Assembly: GCF_027483985.1 (NCBI RefSeq)
Contig: NZ_JAIXTJ010000056.1
Coordinates: forward strand, 62,001-126,000
DNA: 64,000 bases
Direction: 5' to 3'
From: Flavobacterium sp.
GTDB lineage: Bacteria; Bacteroidota; Bacteroidia; Flavobacteriales; Flavobacteriaceae
Shown: one piece after another, positions 3,278 through 50,129 of the stretch
How positions within the stretch are numbered: the first letter of the stretch is position 1
How the letters are laid out: every line of letters begins with the position of its first letter
Notes under the pieces: generated by a model
What the model was told of the DNA's origin: nothing
Seen by the model: the letters and a program-made list of their open reading frames with translations, nothing else
Databases searched by the model: none
Position numbers and translations under genes: made by a program

Positions 3278-3313
3278 CGTTCGTTCTTTGAAGGTGCAAA
3301 TTTAGCTTTTTTT

Positions 3314-3396
3314 AGTGATTAGTGAAAAGTAATTAGTAATTAGTCAAAAAAACGTTTGTAAAAAGCTAATCACTTTTCACTATTTACTATTCACTT
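3314..3396. repeat. Heptad-period inverted repeat
   Basis: The left arm steps by seven (agtgatt, agtgaaa, agtaatt, agtaatt, agtcaaa). The right arm, ctaatcacttttcactattt and onward, is its imperfect reverse complement, so a long hairpin is possible. It lies between pheS and the gene ending at 3395 and reaches that gene's stop codon. Confidence 0.75.
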
Positions 3397-3751
3397 AAGC
3401 AATAAGTTCTTTCTCTAAAAAATAATTCACAATGGCATCTTTCATTAAAATGGTTTGTTCACCTGCTTTTAATGGCGGTAATTCTTCTTTTACTTTATAG
3501 TGAGGCCATCCGTCTTTATCGAAAAATTCGAATTCGTAGTAGCCATAAGGTTCTAATAATCTACAAATGGCGATGTGCATTAGGTTTACTTTTTCGTCTT
3601 TTTTGAATTCGCGATGGAATTTTCCAAATTCTTGAATTCCGATAAGGTAAATTATGGCGTCTAAATCTAAATCTTCTCCTTGCGAAAATTGATTGGAAAG
3701 TATTTCAACGACTTTTTCCCAGCGTTCTTTTAGTTGTATATCTCTAGACAT
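3395..3751 (-). CDS. Conserved hypothetical protein
   Basis: 118 residues, soluble, no signal. The N-terminal half is helical (RWEKVVEILSNQFSQGEDLDLDAIIYLIGIQEFGK) and the C-terminal half more strand-like (YGYYEFEFFDKDGWPHYKV), ending in a helix. I recall homologues in many Bacteroidota without a function. A TATATTTG -7 element lies at 3825-3818 on the minus strand. The stop codon is inside the heptad repeat. Confidence 0.75.
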   Translation of the reverse strand: MSRDIQLKERWEKVVEILSNQFSQGEDLDLDAIIYLIGIQEFGKFHREFKKDEKVNLMHIAICRLLEPYGYYEFEFFDKDGWPHYKVKEELPPLKAGEQTILMKDAIVNYFLEKELIA

Positions 3752-11998: not shown

Positions 11999-12197
11999 TT
12001 GTTGATTGAAGATTAACGATTTTTGATTTTAGAAGTTTTACATTCGTCTGTGATAAATTTATTCCTCTTTTAATCGTTAATTTCTTCTTGTTGTTATTAT
12101 CATTGTTGTTTACAGAAATGCTACTAAATTATTACAATTTACTATGGTTGGTATCAAATCTTAAATCAAAAATCGTTAATCATCAATCTTAAATCAT
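11999..12197. repeat. Heptad-period inverted repeat pair with spacer
   Basis: The left part steps by seven (gattgaa, gattaac, gattttt, gatttta). The right part at 12160-12196 (aaatcaaaaatcgttaatca) is the reverse complement of the left core. About 120 bp of AT-rich sequence lie between, with no ORF or promoter that I can see. The repeat touches the stop codon of the DUF58 gene. Confidence 0.65.
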
Positions 12198-13063
12198 TAC
12201 CTAGATTTAAAATAACCCAATAATTTTTTTACATAACTCTCATCTACACGAGTATTTACTGTTCCTGAACCACATTTCGAAAAAATATCTTTAAAATAAC
12301 CAACTTTCTGTTGATAGTTTTTTTCGTAATTCAATCTAACATTTTTAGAACTCGTATCAACAACCATAATTTCGCCCGATTCGGCATCTTCCATTTCAAC
12401 TATACCAATGTTTGGCATTGTTTCTTCGCGAACATCATATACTCGAATTCCAGTAATATCGTGTTTTTTTCCAGCTATTTTCAGTGTTTTTTCATAATCA
12501 TCGTCTACCATAAAATCGGAAATCAAAAATACGATGGCTTTCTTTTTTTGGGTTGATGATAGAAATTTTAAAGCTTGAGATAAATCGGTTTTTCTACTTT
12601 TAGGTTGGAATTCGATTAATTCTCGTATGATTCGAAGTACGTGTGATTTCCCTTTTTTTGGTGGAATATACAATTCGATGGCGTCGGAAAACAAAATCAA
12701 TCCAATTTTATCGTTATTTTGAGTTGCTGAAAATGCCATTGTCGCAGCAATTTCAGTTACAATTTCACTTTTCAACTGATTTTTAGTTCCAAAATTTTCT
12801 GAACCCGAAATATCGACCATTAACATCATTGTTAATTCGCGTTCTTCTTCAAAAACCTTTACGTGTGCCTCGTTGTAACGCGCGGTCACATTCCAATCAA
12901 TAGCACGCACATCATCACCAAATTGATAAGGTCGCACTTCAGAAAACGTCATTCCGCGTCCTTTAAAAGACGTATGGTATTCTCCCGAAAAGATATGATC
13001 GCTCAATCTTCGGGTTTTGATTTCTATTTTACGAACTTTTTTTAGTAGGTCTTTCGTCTCCAT
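12197..13063 (-). CDS. DUF58 domain protein (VWA-like) of the moxR-bat operon
   Basis: 288 residues, no signal or membrane helix, so cytoplasmic. The N-terminal part carries the DUF58 hallmark (GRGMTFSEVRPYQFGDDVRAIDWNVTAR, residues about 36-63). A VWA-like fold follows, with VDISGSENF in MIDAS position and FLISDFMVDDDYE. Genes of this family almost always follow moxR, and here moxR lies 69 bp upstream on the same strand. It is thought to act with the MoxR ATPase as a metal-dependent adaptor. Confidence 0.9.
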   Translation of the reverse strand: METKDLLKKVRKIEIKTRRLSDHIFSGEYHTSFKGRGMTFSEVRPYQFGDDVRAIDWNVTARYNEAHVKVFEEERELTMMLMVDISGSENFGTKNQLKSEIVTEIAATMAFSATQNNDKIGLILFSDAIELYIPPKKGKSHVLRIIRELIEFQPKSRKTDLSQALKFLSSTQKKKAIVFLISDFMVDDDYEKTLKIAGKKHDITGIRVYDVREETMPNIGIVEMEDAESGEIMVVDTSSKNVRLNYEKNYQQKVGYFKDIFSKCGSGTVNTRVDESYVKKLLGYFKSR

Positions 13064-13064
13064 T

Positions 13065-13131
13065 TTCTAGTGTTCAGTATTCAGTGTTCAGTATTCAGTT
13101 TGCCAACTGAGCATTTAGCACTGTAAACTAA
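13065..13131. repeat. Heptad-period inverted repeat between moxR and DUF58
   Basis: agtgttc, agtattc, agtgttc, agtattc, agtttgc in exact 7-bp steps, then aactgagcatttagcactgt as an imperfect reverse complement. It fills the intergenic gap. Confidence 0.7.
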
Positions 13132-14289: not shown

Positions 14290-14325
14290 AAGGTTGCGAG
14301 TTTCGGGTTGCGAGTTTCGGGTTAC
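14290..14325. repeat. Heptad-period repeat, left member of an inverted pair
   Basis: ggttgcg, agtttcg, ggttgcg, agtttcg, ggttact in 7-bp steps. It is roughly the reverse complement of the element at 14518-14552. The bases between 14138 and 14290 are AT-rich and I see nothing else there. Confidence 0.7.
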
Positions 14326-14406
14326 TATATGTGAAATTAAAATTGCAATGCAAAAGGTAAAAATTTGCTAAATTTGAAATGAAATAACTTTTAAGTAACA
14401 AATGCT

Positions 14407-14478
14407 ATGGCTACAATAACTACATTTGAAGAACTTGATATTTGGCAGTCAGGAAGAGAAATTTGTACAGGTATTTAG
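14407..14478 (+). pseudogene. Four-helix-bundle (23S rRNA IVS-type) protein remnant
   Basis: An ATG-started reading frame of 23 codons, MATITTFEELDIWQSGREIC, ends in TAG. This is the characteristic start of the small four-helix-bundle family (23S rRNA intervening-sequence protein, about 120 residues). The rest of the family sequence does not follow in any frame, so it is a 5' fragment. It lies between the two members of an inverted heptad repeat. Confidence 0.6.
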
Positions 14479-14501
14479 TATCAATTATTTATAAAAAATC
14501 T

Positions 14502-15422
14502 ATGAATCAACAAAATAAAAACCCGAAACTCGAAACTCGAAACTCGAAACTTTCTGAAATAATTGCTGGAACTATGAATTGGGGCGTTTGGGATAAAAAA
14601 CTCAACACCCAAGAAATGATTCATTTGATAAACATTTGTATCGAAAACAGCATTACCACTTTTGATCACGCCGATATTTATGGTGGTTATACGACCGAAG
14701 AGCAATTCGGAAAAGCATTTGGCGAAAGCAAAATTTCACGAGAAAAACTGCAATTAATTTCAAAATGTGGTATCCAACTTGAAGGAAATAGAACTAATAA
14801 AATCAAACACTACGATTACTCGAAAGAATACATCATTTGGAGCGTTGAAAATTCGTTAAAAAATCTCCAAACAGATTATTTGGATGTTTTGCTTTTGCAT
14901 CGCCCAAGTCCGTTGATGGTTGCCGATGAAATTGCTGAAGCAGTTGAAAAACTTAAAGCGGAAGGAAAAATTATCGATTTTGGATTATCTAATTTTACTA
15001 CTTCACAAACCGAGCTAATTAGATCTCGAATCAAGTTCGGGACAAGAACAGAAGTTAGTTATAATCAAATTCAATTTTCGGCAACACATTATGAAGCAAT
15101 GTTGGATGGAAGTTTAGATTATATGCAAACACACGATATTCGACCAATGAGTTGGAATCCGTTAGGAACGGTGTTTAGAGAAGATAATGAGCAAACAAGA
15201 CGATTGAAAAAACTTTTGGTGCAATTGGTTGAAAAATATGGAGTTGGCTCTGATACGATTTTACTTTCTTGGATTTTAAAACATCCTTCTAAAGTTGTTC
15301 CTGTGGCTGGAACGGTAAATATTGCCCGAATTCAACAATTAATGAAAGCAGTTGAATTGCCATTAGACAACCTAGATTGGTTTGCTATTTGGACAGAAAG
15401 TATTGGAAATAAAGTACCTTAA
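14502..15422 (+). CDS. Aldo/keto reductase
   Basis: I take the ATG at 14502 (306 residues); the track's earlier start is a TTG inside the four-helix fragment. Family signatures: TTFDHADIYGGYTTEEQFG (catalytic Asp/Tyr), LISKCGIQ (Lys), and YLDVLLLHRPSP (His), followed by IDFGLSNFTTSQ and SWILKHPSKVVPVAGT. It is expected to be a soluble NADPH-dependent oxidoreductase of the YdhF type; substrate unknown. Residues about 5-17 (NKNPKLETRNSKL) are encoded by the heptad repeat, so that part is probably not ancestral and may be a disordered tail. Confidence 0.85.
   Translation: MNQQNKNPKLETRNSKLSEIIAGTMNWGVWDKKLNTQEMIHLINICIENSITTFDHADIYGGYTTEEQFGKAFGESKISREKLQLISKCGIQLEGNRTNKIKHYDYSKEYIIWSVENSLKNLQTDYLDVLLLHRPSPLMVADEIAEAVEKLKAEGKIIDFGLSNFTTSQTELIRSRIKFGTRTEVSYNQIQFSATHYEAMLDGSLDYMQTHDIRPMSWNPLGTVFREDNEQTRRLKKLLVQLVEKYGVGSDTILLSWILKHPSKVVPVAGTVNIARIQQLMKAVELPLDNLDWFAIWTESIGNKVP
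14518..14552. repeat. Heptad-period repeat inside the 5' end of the aldo/keto reductase gene
   Basis: acccgaa, actcgaa, actcgaa, actcgaa, acttt in 7-bp steps. It is read in frame as part of the reductase N-terminus and forms an inverted pair with 14290-14325. Confidence 0.75.
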
Positions 15423-15424
15423 AT

Positions 15425-15498
15425 TTAGTGATTAGTGAAAAGTGATTAGTAAATAGTATGCTGCTAATCACTTTTTACTTTTCACTCATCACTAAAAA
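15425..15498. repeat. Heptad-period inverted repeat
   Basis: The left arm (agtgatt, agtgaaa, agtgatt, agtaaat) steps by seven; the right arm is ctaatcactttttacttttc and onward. Imperfect hairpin. It fills the gap between the reductase and the AlbA_2-like gene. Confidence 0.75.
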
Positions 15499-27525: not shown

Positions 27526-28101
27526 ATGAGTGTAGTTACCGAAAAAAGATTAAAAGACAGAAGTGGTTCATTATGCGAAATTAGCGGAAGTAATGAAAAT
27601 TTGGTAGTCTATGTAGTAGAACCAAAAACTGAAGCTATTCCAGAAAATTCAATTTTAATTACAAAATCGTTAAGAGATCAAATTCTAAATCCAGAAACGA
27701 TGAATCCGAACGATTGGCGAGGTTTAAGCGACAGTATGTGGAACGAAAATCTTCCGGTTCAAATTGTTTCTTGGCGCATGCATGCACGTTTAAAAAACAA
27801 TGACATGCTAGAAATGATGTATCTTGATGAAGATGCTCTCGAATGGGCGAAAGCCACAGGCGAAGCAGATGATGATGAAGGTAAACTTATTCACAAAGAT
27901 TCAAACGGAAACATTTTGAAAGATGGTGATTCGGTAGTTTTAATAAAAGATTTAGATGTAAAAGGCGCTACTTTCACTGCAAAACGTGGTGCTGCTGTTC
28001 ACAATATAAAATTGGTTTGGGATGATGTAAACCTAATTGAAGGACGCGTTGAAAACCAAAGTATTTTTATTCTAACGCAATACGTTAAGAAGACGAAATA
28101 A
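27526..28101 (+). CDS. PhnA-like domain protein
   Basis: 191 residues. The C-terminal 70 residues match the PhnA/YjdM family (DSNGNILKDGDSVVLIKDLD, VKGATFTAKRGAAVHNI, then a final QYVKK), an SH3-like fold. E. coli YjdM reads similarly ([21 protein letters not shown]). The N-terminal part (RSGSLCEISGSNENLVVYVV) has one Cys where the family often has a zinc ribbon, so metal binding may be lost. Despite the name, the family's role in phosphonate use is doubtful. It lies 9 bp after the barrel gene. Confidence 0.8.
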   Translation: MSVVTEKRLKDRSGSLCEISGSNENLVVYVVEPKTEAIPENSILITKSLRDQILNPETMNPNDWRGLSDSMWNENLPVQIVSWRMHARLKNNDMLEMMYLDEDALEWAKATGEADDDEGKLIHKDSNGNILKDGDSVVLIKDLDVKGATFTAKRGAAVHNIKLVWDDVNLIEGRVENQSIFILTQYVKKTK

Positions 28102-28105
28102 GTGG

Positions 28106-28301
28106 TGATGAGTGATTAGTGATTAGTAATTAGTGATTAGTGATTAGTGATTAGTGATGAGTGATGAGTGATGAGTGATTAGTGATGAGTGATGAGTGAT
28201 GAGTGATGAGTGATGAGTGATGAGTGATGAGTGATGAGTGATGAGTGATGAGTGATTAGTGATGAGTGATTAGTGATTAGTGATTAGTGATTAGTGATTA
28301 G
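28106..28301. repeat. Heptanucleotide tandem repeat, 28 units
   Basis: Twenty-eight uninterrupted 7-bp units, almost all TGATGAG or TGATTAG, one TAATTAG. TGATGAG units fill the centre and TGATTAG units the ends. It has stops in all frames and is non-coding. It sits between the convergent phnA-like and aldehyde dehydrogenase genes, directly before a strong hairpin built from the same heptamer. Confidence 0.9.
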
Positions 28302-28309
28302 CAAAAATA

Positions 28310-28346
28310 AAAAAGTGATTAGTTGTAAACCAACTAATCACTTTTT
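28310..28346. terminator. Bidirectional terminator built from the heptad repeat
   Basis: Perfect 16-bp arms (AAAAAGTGATTAGTTG / CAACTAATCACTTTTT) with a 5-base loop. A/T tracts on both sides allow termination of both convergent genes. Confidence 0.8.
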
Positions 28347-41516: not shown

Positions 41517-44500
41517 TTATTTGTTTTCTCTGTTAATGTATATCCAACCTGATTTACTTGCCTGATTATTTTTAAATTCAATTACATAGTAATAAGTTCC
41601 ATCAGGTAATTCATTACCATTATCTGACTGTCCTATCCATTCATTGGTGTAATCGGCTTTAGAATAAACTTTAGAACCATATCTATTGTAAATACTTAGT
41701 TTTTGAACACCAAGGTATTCCAAATCAAAGTATTCATTTGAGCCATCATTATTAGGTGAAATACCTTTTTGAATAGTGCAATAAATAGCAGGTAAAGTTA
41801 TTGGTTTTTGTAAAATACAACCAGCTGCTGTAGTAACTGTTACATTAAATGTTAACGGTAATGGTTCTATTACTGATGTAGAATTTACATAAGCTGTAAC
41901 ATCAAAGGTCGCATCACCAGTTCCAACTGATGTTGAACCAAATTGCCAAGCAAATGAAGCTGTATTGATATCAAAACTATTATTAGTTGGAATAACTTCT
42001 AAAACAAAACTATTATTTTCACAACCACCGTCAATAACAAAATCAAAAGCAGGTGTAAATGTTACAGTTCCAGAATCAGTTCCTGTACATCCAGTTGCAG
42101 TATTGGTGATAACTACACTATATTGTCCAGACACACTAGTAGTGAAAGAAGCAACATTACCTGGATTAGTAACAGAAGCCGGTACAGTCCATACATAACT
42201 ATAAGTTCCTGCCGTACCTGGAGTAGCTACAACTGTAGCAGAACCACCTTGACAAATAGTTAAATCTGTCACTGTAACTGTAGGATTTGCATTAATTGTA
42301 ACTGTACCACTTGCACTAGAACTTGTACAACCAGTAACTGTATTAGTAATTATAACTGAATAAGTTCCCGCAACTGTAGTATTAATTGTTGCTACATTTC
42401 CTGGATTGGTCGCTCCAGTTGGAACTGTCCATACATAACTATATGTTCCTGCAGTACCTGGAGTAGCAGCAATTGAAGCTGTTGTACCTTGACAAACTGT
42501 AGCACTTGATACAGAAACCGTCGGAATTGAATTTACAGTAACAGTACCCGAAGCGCTAGAACTAACACAACCAGTAGAAGAATTAGTAATTACAACTGAA
42601 TATGTTCCAGCTACAGATGTAGTAAATGAATCTACGTTTCCTGGGTCAGAAACACCAGTAGGAACTGTCCAAACATAATTATATGATGCAGTAACATTTG
42701 GAGTAGCGGTAACTGTCGCCAATGTACCTGAACAAACACTTGGACTATTAACCGTAACAATAGGATTAGCATTTATTGTAACTACACCTGAGGCAGATGT
42801 ACTAAAACAACCTGTAGTAGCATCAGTAATAACTACTGAATATGTTCCAGAAACTGTTGTAGTAAAAGTTGATACATCACCTGGATTAACTACACCTGAA
42901 GGAACAGTCCAAGCGTAATTATATGTGCCTGCTGAGCCTGCTGTTGCAACCAAAGTAACTGTTGAGCCATCGCAAGCCACTGGACTATTGACAGAAACCG
43001 TTGGATTAGTATTTACTGTAACAATTCCAGAAGCAGAAGCACTTGAACAACCTGTTGCGGTATCGGTAATTACAACTGAATAAGTACCAGCGATAGATGT
43101 ATCAAACGTTGCAACATCGCCTGGATTAGTAACTCCTGACGGAACTGTCCAAACATAGCTATAGCTTCCTGTTGATCCTGCCGAGGCAATTAGTGTAGCT
43201 AGTGCACCACTGCAAACTGTCGGACTGTTAACTGAAACTGTTGGATTAGGATTTGCAGCTACAACTCCCGAAGCAGAAGCACTTGAACATCCTGTTATTG
43301 TATCAGTTATTATTACCGAATAAGTTCCAATTAATAATGTGGTAAATGAAGCAACGTTTCCAGGATCAGTTCCACCCGCAGGAACAGTCCAAACGTAATT
43401 ATATGATCCTGCTACATTTGGAGTAGCAGTTACTGTTGCTAAGGCACCAGAACAAACACTTGTATTATTAACTGAAACAATAGGGTTTGGATTTATTGTA
43501 ACTATCCCTGCAGCAGATGTACTGATACAACCTGTTGCAGAATTTGTGATAACGACAGAATATGTTCCAGAAACTGTTGTAGTAAAAGTTGACACATCAC
43601 CAGGATTAACAACTCCTGAAGGAACTGTCCAAGCGTAACTATATGTACCTGCGGATCCTGCTGTTGCAACTAAAGTCACGGTTGAGCCTTCACAAGCTAC
43701 TGGACTATTAACTGAAACGGTTGGATTTGTGTTTATTGTAACAATTCCAGATGCAGACGAGCTTGAACAACCTGTTACTGTATCAGTAATTATTACTGAA
43801 TAAGTTCCAGAAACGTTAGTATCAAATGTAGCGACATTACCCGGATTAGCAACTCCTGATGGAACTGTCCAAGAATAACTATAAGTTCCAGTAGTACCCG
43901 GTGCTGCAGTGATTGTTGCTAATGCACCGCTACAAACTGTAGGGCTATTAACTGTAACAATAGGATTAGAAATTACAGTTACAACTCCTGATGCAGATGA
44001 ACTTGAACATCCTGTTGTTGTACTTGTGATTATTACAGAATAAGTTCCAGCAATAGTTGTGGTAAATGTAGCAACGTTACCTGGATTTGTTACGCCAGCA
44101 GGAACTGTCCAAACATAATTATAAGATCCTGAAACATTTGGAGTAGCAGTAACTGTCGCTGAAGTACCATCACATACTGTTGGGCTATTAACAGTAACAG
44201 TAGGGCTGCTTGGATCTATTAATACTATTGATGTAGTGTTTGGCAAAGAACATCCGTTAACAGTTAATAAAAAGTTAGAATAATTTCCAGAATTCAAACC
44301 AGTTATTACATATACGCCTGCACTATTAGTTGTAATAGTATTTGGACCAACTGTTGTTGTATCATCTTGATAAGTTAAAGCATAAGATTCGTTAGAAGCT
44401 AAACCAGAAATTGTGATAGTTCCATTTGTGCCAGCACATGTCGTTGGATTAGTACCTGCATAAACTGGATTAGATTGAATAGTAAAAGTAGCAATATAAT

Positions 44501-47500
44501 TTGCACCATTATTATTGATGAAAATTGTATCATCACAAGCACTAGTTGAGTTAACATCTCCTGTAACATCATAATAAACTTCAATCACATAATTTCCCGG
44601 AGGATAATTTGTTAAATTTATTGGAGATTGAGAATCATTTAAAACTCTTTGCCATTTTTGATCTCCTGTGCTACAAGGACCGCCAGATGGGAAAGTTCCA
44701 CCGCCGCAATTATCGAAGAACGGTAAATCAAATACTGTAAATGCGCCTGGTGTTGATGCAGCAGGATAAATTCTATAATTTAACCTTGCACTACAAACAT
44801 TTGCCGTTGCAGATTTGAAAGTTTTTAATTCACCACCTCTAAAAATTAATGTATTTGAATTTTGAACATAAGTTCCTAAATCAGTATTTGGAAACACGTT
44901 AGTTGCAGGACCAATTATATCAGTTCCTGATCCTACCGTATTAAAGAAACCAGATGTTTCGCAATTTGTTAACCAAACCGCATTGGCATAACTACCAAAA
45001 TCGCAATTAGGCAATACTGTAACATTTAAAGTTGTAGTTGCAGCACATTGTCCTGGATCAGGAGTAAATGTGTAAGTTCCAGAAGCTGTATTACTTACAA
45101 CTGATGGCGACCACGTTCCCGTAATTGGTGTAGCATTACTAGATGATGTTGGTAATACCGGCGCTGGAGAACCGGGACAAATAGGCGCAGGTGCTAAAAA
45201 CGATGGAACAACATTTGGCGTCACAACAATATCCATTGTGGTTGGGAAAGAACATTGTGTAATGTTAGGTGTAAATGTATAAGTAGTTGTACCCACTGTA
45301 TTACTTACAACCGAAGGAGACCACGTTCCTGTTACACCTGAGTTAGCAGTTGTAGGTAACACTGGCGGAGTAGTTCCTTCACAAAAAGGTTGAATTTGAT
45401 TGAAGGTAGCGTTTACATAATCAACAACAATTATTGTTTGAGTACTTGAAGCAGACTGCGGACATAAAGGATTATTATCTGATGATGTAGCTGTAATATT
45501 ATATGTTCCAACAGCTGTTGGTGAAAATATTACGCTACTACCCGTTGTAGTATTCAATTGAGTAGAAGGCGACCAAGTATAGATACCATTTCCACCTGTA
45601 GCATTTAAAGTTGCAGTTTGTCCAAGACATATAGTTGGAGATGTTGTCGTTGTTGATGTATTTATTGCTACTGGTGTTTGAATTCCTGTATTAGCACCAA
45701 TAACATAATTACAAACGTCACCTGCAAATCCATCTATCATTACATAATATGTTTGACCTGGAGTTAATCCTGTTGCAGATAAATTTGTTGCTCCAGCAGG
45801 TACGTTACCTGGACTCCAACATAAATATTCAGTAACTGGACCTGAGCCACAAGTTGCAGCTCCAAATATCATAATTTGAATACCTAAATTATCTTGAGAG
45901 CTTGTTACCCAAACATCTAATGATATAGTTGATGATGAAGCTACAAAAGTTAAGAATGAATTATTTTCAAGCGAACCACAAAACTCCGTTGTTAATTGTG
46001 GCCAAGAATCTGATGTATAAGAAGCTGAAGTATTTCCGCAATATCCATTTAAATTACATATAGGAGTTGCAACAGCACATGTATTCCCAGCTGGCGTGTT
46101 TGTAATACAACTTGGAGGTGGAACTGGTGTTCCAATACATAATGTAAAAGCTGATGTTTGGTTAGGTGTTCCTGTCCAAGTATAAACTCTAATAAAATAA
46201 GTTTGACCAGGAACTAAACCATTTGCGTTACTATTATTAGGATCACTACAATACAATTGCGTTAAAGTTCCACAAGAACCAGAATATAGTACGTGATATA
46301 AATCAGTAGTACTACCAGTTACGTTATTAAGATTTATTGTATGACTAGTGCTAGTTGCAGTAAACTGAAACCAAACGTCATCATCATCAGTTCCTCCACA
46401 AGCATTAGGCTGAGTTGAAGCCGTTGCTCCAATAACTGTTCCTGATACCGTTTGAAGACATGTGTTTGTCGTATTCACAGGAGCAACTGTTGCATTAGCA
46501 CATTCATCATTTGCAATTAGTGTGGTAAATGATCTAACATTAGACCATAAACTTATATCTGTATTACTACATCTAGAACGAACATAAACATCATATTGAG
46601 TGCCTGAACTTAAACCAGTTGCAATGTAAGGATTAGTCGTCGTTATAATACCCGCAGAACTTGCGTTAGGTACAGGAGAACCCGCAGGCACTATAAGAAC
46701 TTCCCAAGTTGTTGCTGAACCTATCTCTGTCCAAGAAATTGTTGCGCCTGTTTGCGTTATCGCTGATATAGCAACTGCTGTAGGTTTTGGACATGTTGGA
46801 GGCGGCGCACATGTTACATTTGCCACCCATCCTGGTGCATTAACAGATCCATCGCTTCTAAATCTAAATGTTAAACATCCATTGGCACTTGAAGCAGTAA
46901 AAGGTCCAGGTAAATTCGCACCTGTTAAAGTTCCCCAATAAGATCCTGGTAAACCACCTGGAACGTTTCCTCCACCATTTGTACTAGCTAATTGTGGCGC
47001 TGCAATTGAATTTCCATCAAAAACATATAAACCATCCCATGTTGCTTCGGTATTAAATGAAGTAAAAGTCACAGTTACTTGCTCAGTTGGAATTGTTGGA
47101 CAAATAGTTACTGTATAGTCTGAACCATTAGCATAATTTACTGTAGCGCCAGCTGGATCGGTAAACGTTCCTCCACATGCTGGTGGTGCAATTTGTGTTG
47201 TAATTGTTGACGGTCCAACCCAGTTACTCAAATCATTTCCAGGACAAACAGCTCTTACATATAAATTATAACAAGTATCTGGAGTTAATCCCGTAAACAC
47301 GTGTGGATTAGTTGTTGTAGTAATAAAAGTTGTTGTAGATGCATTTGGAGCAGGTGAACCACAAGGTAAGGCTAAAACATGCCAAGTAGTTGCTGTATTT
47401 GGATTAACCCAAGCTAAAGTCGCAGAGTTTGATGTAACTGCTGAAGTGGTTAAAGTATTTGGATTTGGACAAGTTGGTGGAACAGCACATGAAACATTTG

Positions 47501-50129
47501 CAACCCAACCAGGATTGTTTACTGAACCATCACTTCTAAATCTGAAGGTTAAACATCCATTTGGAGCTGTTGAAGTAAAAGATCCTGGTAAATTTGCTCC
47601 TGTTAAATTACCCCAATAAGATCCTGGCAAAGCTCCTGGAACGTTTCCTGCACCGTTAGTACTAGATATTTGTGGTGATGTTATGGCATTTCCGTTAAAA
47701 ACGTACAACCCATCATAAGTAGCTTCGGTATTAAAAGTTGTAAAGGTAACCGTAACAACTTCGCCCGGTACAGTAGGACAAATTGTAACAGTAGTATCTG
47801 CACCGTTAGCATAATTTGCAGCTGAACCTCCTGGATCAGTAAATGTACCTCCACAAGCTGGAGGTGTTATTGATGTAGTAAATGTAGTTGGTCCTGACCA
47901 AGTACTAAAATCTGATGAAGAGCAGGCACTTCTAACATATACATTATAACAAGTTTCACCTGTTAAACCAGTTAAAGTAAAAGGGTTCGTATTAGCGATA
48001 ACCCATCCTGTAGACGACGCAGTTGGCGCTGGTGCTGTACAAGGCAAAGCTATAACGTGCCATTGTGTTGCTGGACCTGCTGCAGTCCAAGCTATATTAG
48101 CCGAACTTGATAATACTGTATTTGAAGTTATAGAAAACGGAGCTGGACAAGCTGGTGGTAATGCACACGTTACGTTAGCAACCCATCCTGCAGCATTTGT
48201 GGTTCCATTACTTCTAAATCTAAAAGTTAAACAACCATCGGCACTAGAAGAAGTAAATGCTCCTGGATTAGTTGTACCCCAATAAGAACCTGCAACTCCA
48301 CCAGGTACAGTACCTGCTGGATTACCACTTAAAAATTGTGGTGCTGAAATTGAGTTTCCATTAAAAATATATAATCCATCATTACTTGCTTGAGTATTGA
48401 ATGATGTAAATGTTACGGTTACTACTTCGCCAGGAGTGGTCGGACAAATAACCACTGTAGAATCTAAATTATTTGCATAATTCGCTGAAGCTCCACCTTG
48501 ATCTGTAAATGTTCCTCCGCATGCAGGTGGTGGAACTAGTGTGTTAAAAACAAAAGGACCAGCCCAAGCACTAAATGTTCCATTTCCACAATCAGCTCTT
48601 ACCCAATATTGATATGCTGTATCAGGATTTAAACCAGTAATTGGGTTTGTTGTATTTGAACTAGTTTGTGTACCTGCTCCAGCCGGAATTGCTGAGCCCG
48701 ATGTTTGAACTACATATTCCCAAGAAGTTGCATTTCCTGGATTAGCCCAAGATAAATTTCCTCCTGTTAATGAAATTCCAGTTACAGCTTGATTCGTAGG
48801 CTGTGCACAATTTAATTGTTGAATAACTAAGGAATAGCTATAAGTCTGTGCGGCAGTTGTTCCTGAAAGCACTATAATATATTGTTGCCCTGCAATAACA
48901 TTCAAACTAGGAATAGATCTTACAGTATTTGTAGTATTGGCGACACCAGCTAAACACGTAGCTCCAACATTTGCACAACCTTGATAAACAAAAATTGATG
49001 AACTATTAGCTCCAGGTGTCATAGTAATACTTATAGCACCAGTGGTTGTTGGTGTGTAGGAATAAAACACATCATTACCTGTCATAAAATTAGTTGTTGA
49101 TCCACAAGAGGTACCTTGATTAGTATCTGTAGTATCACCATAATTTGTTGTGTTATCATTTGTACTATAAGGTAACGCAGAAATTGTAATCGGCGCAATA
49201 CAAGATAGACCAGGAGTAGTGGTGGCAAAATTAAATGGTCCTACCCAATTACTTGAACCATCTGCACACAGAGACCTAACGTAATAGACATATCCTGTTC
49301 CAGGTTGCAATCCAGTGGCTACATATGGAAGTGCTCCATTGTAAACAACTCCAACTCCTGTTGGAGTAGTATTTGTTACTTCAATTTCCCACGAAGTTGA
49401 ACCACTTGGATTTGACCAGCTTAAATTTGCTGAATTTTGTGTAATACCAGTAGCTGATAAATTTGTAGGTTCTAAACATCTTTGTGCCAATCTAACATCA
49501 TCAACTAACCATCTATCTCCACCTAAAGCACCTGTTGGTTGATTATAACGCATCACAAATGCAATATAAACTTGATGATTTGCAAAAGCAGTAAGATCTA
49601 CCACTTTTTCTTCATATACATTATAGGTAGCACTAAGTGTTGCTTCTGTCCACTGAGCTGGAGTATTAATATAATTAGCTATATTTGTTTGACTTCCTGC
49701 GCCTTGTGCGGTTACATCAAATACCTTAATAAAGTACTCTGTTCCGTTAGGTCCGCTAATTGTAGATCTAGTCCAAAAACGTAATTGTCCGTTAGAAGGA
49801 ACAGTTACTAAAGGCGTTGCTAAATAATCTTCAGACGTATTTCCAACACCAATATTCTCTCGATCCATATAGGCCGAATTTGTTCCTTGATAAACATTTG
49901 CAACAACAGAGTTTATACCCCATCTTCTTGTTAAACCAACGCCGTTATCAAAAACAGCCCATTGGTTGGTAGTTGCTCCAGTACCTAATGTCCAAGGACT
50001 AGGCGTTGTTGGTGCTGCTAAATCGGGTCCTGTAGTTCCTTCAAAGCCCTCCGAACCTGGAGTTGGAAACTGGGAAAATCCCGCAATAGAAAATAGCAAG
50101 GCAACAATTAGTAGTGTAATTTTCTTCAT
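41517..50129 (-). CDS. Giant T9SS-secreted adhesin with FN3, CUB-like and Ig/PKD-like repeats
   Basis: 2870 residues. Signal peptide 1-19 (MKKITLLIVALLFSIAGFSQ). The order after that: an anchor-J-like domain (about 25-215); FN3 domains; a PPC-like segment; three CUB-like plus FN3 units (about 530-1110, each starting CGGTFTD); another PPC-like part and several Ser/Thr/Pro-rich beta domains; nine 80-residue Ig/PKD-like repeats (about 1973-2691); and a type B sorting domain (KGISPNNDGSNEYFDLEYLG; KLSIYNRYGSKVY). It is exported through T9SS and kept at the surface, probably for attachment or gliding. It heads the sprF-porE operon. A TAAATTTG -7 lies at 50190-50183. Confidence 0.92.
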   Translation of the reverse strand: MKKITLLIVALLFSIAGFSQFPTPGSEGFEGTTGPDLAAPTTPSPWTLGTGATTNQWAVFDNGVGLTRRWGINSVVANVYQGTNSAYMDRENIGVGNTSEDYLATPLVTVPSNGQLRFWTRSTISGPNGTEYFIKVFDVTAQGAGSQTNIANYINTPAQWTEATLSATYNVYEEKVVDLTAFANHQVYIAFVMRYNQPTGALGGDRWLVDDVRLAQRCLEPTNLSATGITQNSANLSWSNPSGSTSWEIEVTNTTPTGVGVVYNGALPYVATGLQPGTGYVYYVRSLCADGSSNWVGPFNFATTTPGLSCIAPITISALPYSTNDNTTNYGDTTDTNQGTSCGSTTNFMTGNDVFYSYTPTTTGAISITMTPGANSSSIFVYQGCANVGATCLAGVANTTNTVRSIPSLNVIAGQQYIIVLSGTTAAQTYSYSLVIQQLNCAQPTNQAVTGISLTGGNLSWANPGNATSWEYVVQTSGSAIPAGAGTQTSSNTTNPITGLNPDTAYQYWVRADCGNGTFSAWAGPFVFNTLVPPPACGGTFTDQGGASANYANNLDSTVVICPTTPGEVVTVTFTSFNTQASNDGLYIFNGNSISAPQFLSGNPAGTVPGGVAGSYWGTTNPGAFTSSSADGCLTFRFRSNGTTNAAGWVANVTCALPPACPAPFSITSNTVLSSSANIAWTAAGPATQWHVIALPCTAPAPTASSTGWVIANTNPFTLTGLTGETCYNVYVRSACSSSDFSTWSGPTTFTTSITPPACGGTFTDPGGSAANYANGADTTVTICPTVPGEVVTVTFTTFNTEATYDGLYVFNGNAITSPQISSTNGAGNVPGALPGSYWGNLTGANLPGSFTSTAPNGCLTFRFRSDGSVNNPGWVANVSCAVPPTCPNPNTLTTSAVTSNSATLAWVNPNTATTWHVLALPCGSPAPNASTTTFITTTTNPHVFTGLTPDTCYNLYVRAVCPGNDLSNWVGPSTITTQIAPPACGGTFTDPAGATVNYANGSDYTVTICPTIPTEQVTVTFTSFNTEATWDGLYVFDGNSIAAPQLASTNGGGNVPGGLPGSYWGTLTGANLPGPFTASSANGCLTFRFRSDGSVNAPGWVANVTCAPPPTCPKPTAVAISAITQTGATISWTEIGSATTWEVLIVPAGSPVPNASSAGIITTTNPYIATGLSSGTQYDVYVRSRCSNTDISLWSNVRSFTTLIANDECANATVAPVNTTNTCLQTVSGTVIGATASTQPNACGGTDDDDVWFQFTATSTSHTINLNNVTGSTTDLYHVLYSGSCGTLTQLYCSDPNNSNANGLVPGQTYFIRVYTWTGTPNQTSAFTLCIGTPVPPPSCITNTPAGNTCAVATPICNLNGYCGNTSASYTSDSWPQLTTEFCGSLENNSFLTFVASSSTISLDVWVTSSQDNLGIQIMIFGAATCGSGPVTEYLCWSPGNVPAGATNLSATGLTPGQTYYVMIDGFAGDVCNYVIGANTGIQTPVAINTSTTTTSPTICLGQTATLNATGGNGIYTWSPSTQLNTTTGSSVIFSPTAVGTYNITATSSDNNPLCPQSASSTQTIIVVDYVNATFNQIQPFCEGTTPPVLPTTANSGVTGTWSPSVVSNTVGTTTYTFTPNITQCSFPTTMDIVVTPNVVPSFLAPAPICPGSPAPVLPTSSSNATPITGTWSPSVVSNTASGTYTFTPDPGQCAATTTLNVTVLPNCDFGSYANAVWLTNCETSGFFNTVGSGTDIIGPATNVFPNTDLGTYVQNSNTLIFRGGELKTFKSATANVCSARLNYRIYPAASTPGAFTVFDLPFFDNCGGGTFPSGGPCSTGDQKWQRVLNDSQSPINLTNYPPGNYVIEVYYDVTGDVNSTSACDDTIFINNNGANYIATFTIQSNPVYAGTNPTTCAGTNGTITISGLASNESYALTYQDDTTTVGPNTITTNSAGVYVITGLNSGNYSNFLLTVNGCSLPNTTSIVLIDPSSPTVTVNSPTVCDGTSATVTATPNVSGSYNYVWTVPAGVTNPGNVATFTTTIAGTYSVIITSTTTGCSSSSASGVVTVISNPIVTVNSPTVCSGALATITAAPGTTGTYSYSWTVPSGVANPGNVATFDTNVSGTYSVIITDTVTGCSSSSASGIVTINTNPTVSVNSPVACEGSTVTLVATAGSAGTYSYAWTVPSGVVNPGDVSTFTTTVSGTYSVVITNSATGCISTSAAGIVTINPNPIVSVNNTSVCSGALATVTATPNVAGSYNYVWTVPAGGTDPGNVASFTTLLIGTYSVIITDTITGCSSASASGVVAANPNPTVSVNSPTVCSGALATLIASAGSTGSYSYVWTVPSGVTNPGDVATFDTSIAGTYSVVITDTATGCSSASASGIVTVNTNPTVSVNSPVACDGSTVTLVATAGSAGTYNYAWTVPSGVVNPGDVSTFTTTVSGTYSVVITDATTGCFSTSASGVVTINANPIVTVNSPSVCSGTLATVTATPNVTASYNYVWTVPTGVSDPGNVDSFTTSVAGTYSVVITNSSTGCVSSSASGTVTVNSIPTVSVSSATVCQGTTASIAATPGTAGTYSYVWTVPTGATNPGNVATINTTVAGTYSVIITNTVTGCTSSSASGTVTINANPTVTVTDLTICQGGSATVVATPGTAGTYSYVWTVPASVTNPGNVASFTTSVSGQYSVVITNTATGCTGTDSGTVTFTPAFDFVIDGGCENNSFVLEVIPTNNSFDINTASFAWQFGSTSVGTGDATFDVTAYVNSTSVIEPLPLTFNVTVTTAAGCILQKPITLPAIYCTIQKGISPNNDGSNEYFDLEYLGVQKLSIYNRYGSKVYSKADYTNEWIGQSDNGNELPDGTYYYVIEFKNNQASKSGWIYINRENK
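42055..44213 (-). repeat. Nine 240-bp coding repeats (80-residue units) in the adhesin
   Basis: Each unit runs from PxVSVNSP through VWTVPSGV, NPGNVATF and GTYSVIIT to TGCSS. Units 1, 4 and 7, units 2 and 5, and units 3 and 6 resemble one another most (3 and 6 agree at about 71 of 80 residues), which shows a 3-unit, 720-bp higher-order period. Units 8 and 9 are more diverged. Confidence 0.88.
46800..48540 (-). repeat. Three CUB-like plus FN3 coding repeats in the adhesin
   Basis: Three units of about 205-225 residues, each CGGTFTDxGG with YAN, VTVTFTxFNT, DGLY(I/V)F(N/D)GN and GCLTFRFRS, followed by a domain with W(H/E)VL and T-G-L segments. The unit boundaries are approximate. Confidence 0.8.

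Follow-up and report, generated by a model that had tools for sequence, protein, structure and literature searches.

Inverted arrays of short tandem repeats around four-helix-bundle genes: a decayed element in Flavobacterium and a proposed protein-plus-cognate-repeat system

To our knowledge, no function is known for the S23/IVP proteins, which occur in the intervening sequences (IVS) of 23S rRNA and in many genomes. RAYT/REPIN systems consist of a conserved gene with inverted repeats at its flanks and many gene-less intergenic hairpins of the same core. REPIN populations have been described (PMC8049555), as have intergenic heptamer arrays in Beggiatoaceae (TAACTGA), Cyanobacteria and Bacteroidetes, where they often abut start codons (PMC4679880). 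The 23S rRNA IVS of Coxiella has a 28-bp terminal inverted repeat, or stem, and tandem GACAGAT heptamers ahead of the S23p ORF in strain-variable number, and a Xanthomonas relative of the four-helix-bundle (FHB) proteins is described as a homopentamer (PMC4990558).

The elements reported here, in which a PF05635/S23-type FHB gene lies between inverted arrays of 7-nt or, in some clades, 8-nt units, resemble the IVS of Leptospira and Coxiella in combining a PF05635 family protein with an S23p ORF enclosed by terminal inverted repeats. The IVS differ in lying within a 23S rRNA helix and in being excised by RNase III, whereas FHB elements lie between protein genes, their cores are specific to a clade, and gene-less relatives are scattered elsewhere in the genome; the IVS look like a special case of the FHB element class, inside rRNA. 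As in RAYT/REPIN systems, the gene of one FHB clade, with repeats of period 8, is flanked by inverted copies of its own genome-dispersed repeat. However, RAYTs are tyrosine (HUH) transposases, none of which FHB proteins match, and each FHB arm consists of some four heptads or octads in tandem rather than of single palindromic REPs. The published heptamer arrays are likewise intergenic, tandem and found in the same phyla, but they are mostly direct repeats with no partner gene or FHB link given (PMC4679880). A literature search returned no paper tying PF05635 genes to dispersed heptamer repeats; its coverage was partial, and an earlier description is not excluded.

The window, a 64,000-nt stretch of a Flavobacterium sp. 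contig (NZ_JAIXTJ010000056.1), contains a feature best read as the wreck of such an element, located between protein genes and not in a 23S rRNA gene:

14290-14328, plus strand: left (upstream) arm, 39 nt, heptads GGTTGCG AGTTTCG GGTTGCG AGTTTCG GGTT, 85% complementary to 14515-14553
14343-14376, plus strand: promoter-like TTG-N23-TAAATTTG, after the left arm and ahead of the gene remnant, seen in the sequence
14407-14478, plus strand: 23-codon FHB gene remnant, MATITTFEELDIWQSGREICTGI then TAG, by alignment to the starts of L060 and L056
14502-15422, plus strand: aldo/keto reductase gene (PF00248, 164.7 bits), with the right arm inside its N-terminal coding sequence
14515-14553, minus strand: right (downstream) arm, 39 nt, ACTCGAA heptad array with unit NNGAAAC

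A sequence-only reading of the window had proposed that inverted heptad repeats flank an FHB gene fragment here. The repeats are real, and their limits were placed correctly to within a few bases. Spaced 186 nt apart, the arms comprise 2.3 copies of GGTTGCGAGTTTCG on the left, that is, two heptads in alternation, and 4.7 copies of AAACTCG on the right. Their inverted-repeat score of 48 exceeds all 1000 first-order Markov randomizations (mean 20.4, maximum 37), ruling out a chance origin of the pair. The 23 codons between them had been recognized as the start of an S23-type four-helix-bundle protein, an identification supported by alignment to the starts of the intact FHB proteins L060 (score 67) and L056 (65), against at most 41 for shuffled versions; by itself, the 23-aa remnant had no Pfam or NCBIfam match in a profile search. 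The TTG-N23-TAAATTTG motif is presumably promoter-like, as judged by the Bacteroidota consensus that we assume.

The reductase ORF has an ATG at 14502 (the mechanical ORF start is a TTG at 14442), and the right arm is translated within it as NPKLETRNSKL, consistent with the earlier claim that the right repeat runs into the reductase N-terminus. A comparison of reductase N-termini, suggested at the same time, bears out the insertion's absence elsewhere: orthologues in eight congeners lack the peptide and start, for example, with MTKTTLSPIIAG, MSKTLLSPIIVG, MNKTKLSPIVAG or MSIKLSPIIAG. No such repeats lie upstream of the orthologous reductase in these congeners, and the orthologous sites are without arms and remnant.

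FHB genes are associated with inverted arrays of short tandem units across bacterial phyla. We examined 175 FHB loci in many phyla, plus cyanobacterial plasmids, and most intact genes sit between such arrays, so that the inspection of flanks proposed in the sequence-only reading did find inverted heptad arms around intact members of the family. The genome of the window alone has 11 intact PF05635 genes, nearly all with inverted short-unit arrays on both sides and with a unit sequence that differs from gene to gene. In 17 genomes of the order, 78 FHB loci had 150-nt flanks with a periodicity of 7, 14 and 21 nt, and upstream arms scored a mean of 36.6 against the reverse complement of their own downstream arm versus 18.1 against the arms of other loci; the largest mean among 2000 random arm pairings was 21.0, and non-FHB control genes scored 17.3. 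A cross-phylum scan with one genome per species gave 80 FHB loci in many phyla. Together with 16 viral-contig loci, these scored 33.4 for own arms versus 16.2 for cross pairs, and 79 of the 96 exceeded the 95th percentile of the cross-pair scores. Armed loci include KSB1, Nitrospirae, Planctomycetes, Verrucomicrobia, Clostridia and one CPR bacterium. For ten cyanobacterial plasmid genes, lag 7 ranked top in nine and tied in the tenth, and the arms were clearly inverted in about half. A few loci (L161, L312) had direct or no clear arms. The FHB loci examined lay between protein genes. Searches used narrow FHB alignments, an initial broad one having proved too diverse for the purpose. FHB genes on IMG/VR contigs classed as viral (L089-L104) had an equal inverted-arm build.

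Intact elements matched PF05635 (23S_rRNA_IVP / four-helix-bundle protein) at 110-143 bits, against a cut-off of 33.8. Profile searches with FHB proteins returned no transposase family, only FHB/S23 families and a weak similarity to Avd of diversity-generating retroelements, a related four-helix-bundle family; L012 fell below both Avd cut-offs (27 vs 80 bits for NF033474, 34 vs 40 bits for PF22296). Two solved relatives, 2gsc and 2rld, each contain five chains.

Across phyla, it is the clade of the FHB protein, not the host, that the period and core of the arms track. In a phylogenetic tree built from 169 FHB proteins, with 136 rows carrying a period label, the period switched between 7 and 8 in 11 places, compared with a mean of 31.1 and a minimum of 25 for shuffled labels; with stringent period calls, six changes remained (shuffled mean 13.2, minimum 10). 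In one clade every period that could be called is 8 and the core reads C-W-R-A-G followed by three variable bases; its hosts include Flavobacterium, Sphingobacterium, KSB1, Nitrospirae and Desulfobacteraceae, among others. The remaining clades have period 7 and cores such as TAGT, AAG and AATT. Core motifs lie on the sense strand in the upstream arm and are inverted in the downstream arm. When fresh genomes were scored against the period-8 clade profile, the expected split by score was seen: all four FHB genes at or above 192 bits had period 8, and period 7 was found in each of the seven that ranked next (141 to 173 bits), with L279, at 139 bits, leaning to period 8. The arm unit of one further FHB pair, L013 and L014, is about 9-10 nt long (CTAAGAAGT), which suggests a third period class.

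For the period-8 clade, and with exceptions, FHB genes co-occur with gene-less arrays of the cognate core. The core array pattern CWRAG(NNN CWRAG)x3, counted in 21 genomes, matched 288 times in G004, 214 in G008, 152 in G006, 58 in G009 and 28 in G005, and 0 to 4 times in the other 16. The clade gene (L012, L024, L029, L028 and L015) is present in exactly those five genomes, a coincidence with a chance of 1 in 20,349 under random assignment; the genomes are related, hence not independent. Matches were about equally frequent on both strands, as expected if the copies are hairpins, and twenty gene-less loci had arms of mostly four units. In a replicate set of 151 genomes from 150 genera, independent of the 21, the four genomes with the period-8 clade gene all matched (two with 19 and 25 matches, two only beside the gene itself), and most genomes without it had zero matches. 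The exceptions were G086, G136 and G159, which have period-8 arrays with no recognized clade gene, and six further genomes in which the matches were few and in several instances simple tandem runs.

Period-7 cores gave a similar, if less tight, picture. The window core GAAACNN reached its top counts, 187 and 46, in the two congeners that have an intact relative of the remnant, and the TAGT core matched 170 times in G000 and 63 times in G005, both with the cognate gene. The TAGT fit is looser in that G007 has the gene but only 4 matches and G009 has 53 matches without an assigned gene. Sampled period-7 array density was 13 in FHB-carrying versus 0 in FHB-less genomes, in a small sample in which FHB-carrying G010 gave none. 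A link between this protein family and the spread of heptad repeats had been raised from the remnant alone, and it is borne out by the period and motif specificity and by the genome-wide co-occurrence.

Gene-less arrays are also present in the window:

3312-3398, no strand assigned: gene-less hairpin of TTAGTNA heptads, two arms and a short loop, from a heptad array scan
13064-13105, plus strand: gene-less TTCAGTR heptad array, core as in FHB element L004
15425-15498, no strand assigned: gene-less hairpin, TTAGTGA-type heptads, occupying the space from the reductase stop to the next ATG
28099-28314, plus strand: extended gene-less array with TTAGTGA/GTGATGA heptads in about 28 copies, from a heptad array scan

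The hairpin at 15425-15498 has a core matching that of the intact FHB element L002 on the same contig. More gene-less heptad arrays or hairpins lie at 183-213 and 12156-12199, and the cores at these two sites and at 3312-3398, 13064-13105 and 15425-15498 (TTAGTNA, TTCAGTR, TTTGATT) recall the FHB elements L002, L004 and L010 of the same genome. The array at 28099-28314 far exceeds the usual four units per arm.

Clean empty sites were seen at orthologous positions. The L260 hairpin of G005, about 100 nt long, lies in the interval from a stop codon to the following ATG, and the matching gap in ten congeners measures 0 to 41 nt with no hairpin. Downstream of the window reductase, G000 and G012 have TAGT hairpins with differing units and G002 has an empty gap, while the yicC-gmk and gmk-nadD sites vary among congeners, some having an FHB gene, some a gene-less hairpin and some neither of these. 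No target-site duplication could be read around the empty sites, where the congeners are too diverged. Some gene-less hairpins enclose native-looking transcription terminators, and the same gene end in relatives has the terminator without arms; in G004, G006 and G008, period-8 arms flank the terminator on both sides (L254; orthologous gene ends L323-L335). In G005, the terminator at this gene end is flanked by what look like the arms of another repeat family, and in G010 the gene end has an array on one side. As the loops of gene-less hairpins are unrelated in sequence, range from 7 to 170 nt and in some cases contain terminators, a transposon with fixed cargo was not adopted as a model.

Much of the complementarity between arms derives from the shared core, since arms swapped within a clade pair about as well as a locus's own arms. 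Pairing unique to each locus was rejected on this basis, with extra in-register agreement seen only in a set of 36 period-8 hairpins, gene-bearing ones included, where agreement of the variable triplets between arms was 0.576 versus 0.450 across hairpins (above all 5000 permutations) and the CTAAG/CAAAG variant was common to both arms (r = 0.80). Constraint on the arms at the RNA level was likewise rejected: sense-strand G-U mismatches were not in excess over A-C mismatches (207 vs 220), which makes recognition of the core in DNA the simpler reading. No Rfam family fell on the arms, the few Rfam matches in 18 sources all lying off them.

We consider it reasonably probable that the FHB-repeat element is a protein-plus-cognate-repeat system of RAYT/REPIN-like organization built around a non-transposase protein, with mobilization in trans as an inference. 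The inverted arms, the clade specificity, the co-occurrence, the occupied and empty orthologous sites, purifying selection on the FHB genes and the like build of the Coxiella IVS speak for this reading; the unrelated loops of gene-less hairpins, the lack of a G-U excess, the exceptions to co-occurrence and the few loci with direct or unclear arms weigh against it. Recognition by FHB proteins of their own repeats is strongly implied, in the absence of binding data, and movement in trans is inferred, no transposition event having been observed. In this view the FHB protein, of which a solved relative is a pentamer, would recognize the cognate repeat core and also act on gene-less copies in trans; the gene would then be the autonomous member and the hairpins the non-autonomous members of a population that may spread through intergenic DNA as RAYT/REPIN populations do. 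Because the protein matches no transposase family, movement would probably require an RNA step or enzymes of host replication or repair. In the window, an element may have inserted into the interval that separates the divergent MoxR-type and reductase genes; most of its FHB gene would then have been lost and its right arm taken into the coding sequence of the reductase. The sequence-only reading had described a small mobile unit that decayed after landing. The decay of a repeat-gene-repeat element stands, but 'small mobile unit' may be too simple, given that several dispersed hairpins bracket terminators, and no transposition event has been demonstrated.

A regulatory role for the repeats, which we judge unlikely as the full account though worth keeping in view, would have the FHB protein bind gene-end repeats in RNA or DNA and tune transcript ends, stability or translation, with the repeats retained for that use and changing by duplication and gene conversion. 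FHB genes are indeed co-directional with both neighbours inside gene strings in 54 of 58 cases, compared with 25 of 48 control genes, hairpins adjoin stop or start codons and some bracket terminators, and the protein is under strong purifying selection (dN/dS mostly 0.03 to 0.17 between related gene pairs); such a role has also been proposed for the TAACTGA arrays of Beggiatoaceae (PMC4679880). Yet orthologous sites are often empty, copy number varies between related genomes from one element to more than 100 matches, and no RNA-level pairing constraint was seen. Regulation and mobility are compatible and need not exclude one another.

That FHB genes are mere passengers in some of the arrays, and that a different enzyme, be it a transposase or a host recombination system, moves and amplifies these, would fit the lack of a transposase family match and the varied content between arms. 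This possibility is nonetheless improbable, as a passenger would not predict its repeat, whereas period and core track the FHB clade across phyla rather than the host and the arrays co-occur with that clade. Neutral polymerase slippage, proposed for heptamers, which are the most abundant repeat class in many genomes (summarized in PMC4679880), would make heptamers arise anywhere and their adjacency to FHB genes incidental; it can scarcely be sustained, since slippage does not give arms inverted across a gene, clade-specific periods or co-occurrence with a gene clade.

If, as in the protein-plus-cognate-repeat reading, a small pentameric protein without a match to any transposase recognizes and spreads tandem-repeat hairpins, this would reveal a novel route by which repeat populations, selfish or domesticated, persist, and two puzzles would merge: the function of S23/IVP proteins and the cause of intergenic heptanucleotide arrays in Cyanobacteria, Beggiatoaceae and Bacteroidetes. 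FHB elements are a candidate explanation of the heptamer repeats of many bacteria, with the TAACTGA arrays lying outside our data. More tentatively, and short of being persuaded, we suggest that PF05635 proteins define a phylum-spanning class of repeat spreaders without a transposase of their own, in which each clade reads its own 7- or 8-nt code and maintains gene-less hairpins in trans; this class would be a main source of the heptanucleotide arrays that Bacteroidota and Cyanobacteria carry, with the 23S rRNA IVS as one landing site. The correspondence between protein clade and repeat yields ready binding predictions.

The surroundings of individual loci also varied. On plasmids of Pseudanabaena (L312) and Anabaena sp. 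90 (L318), the FHB gene lies between cas6 and cas4 of a CRISPR operon, and at L117, from candidate division KSB1, two Acido-Lenti-1 RNAs (RF01687; 3486-3531 and 4059-4104) follow a period-8 FHB element at a distance of no more than about 1.3 kb. The window itself contains tandem repeats of 240 bp (42138-44204, about 8 copies) within a 2870-aa ORF on the minus strand (41517-50129), which probably encodes a large repetitive surface protein.
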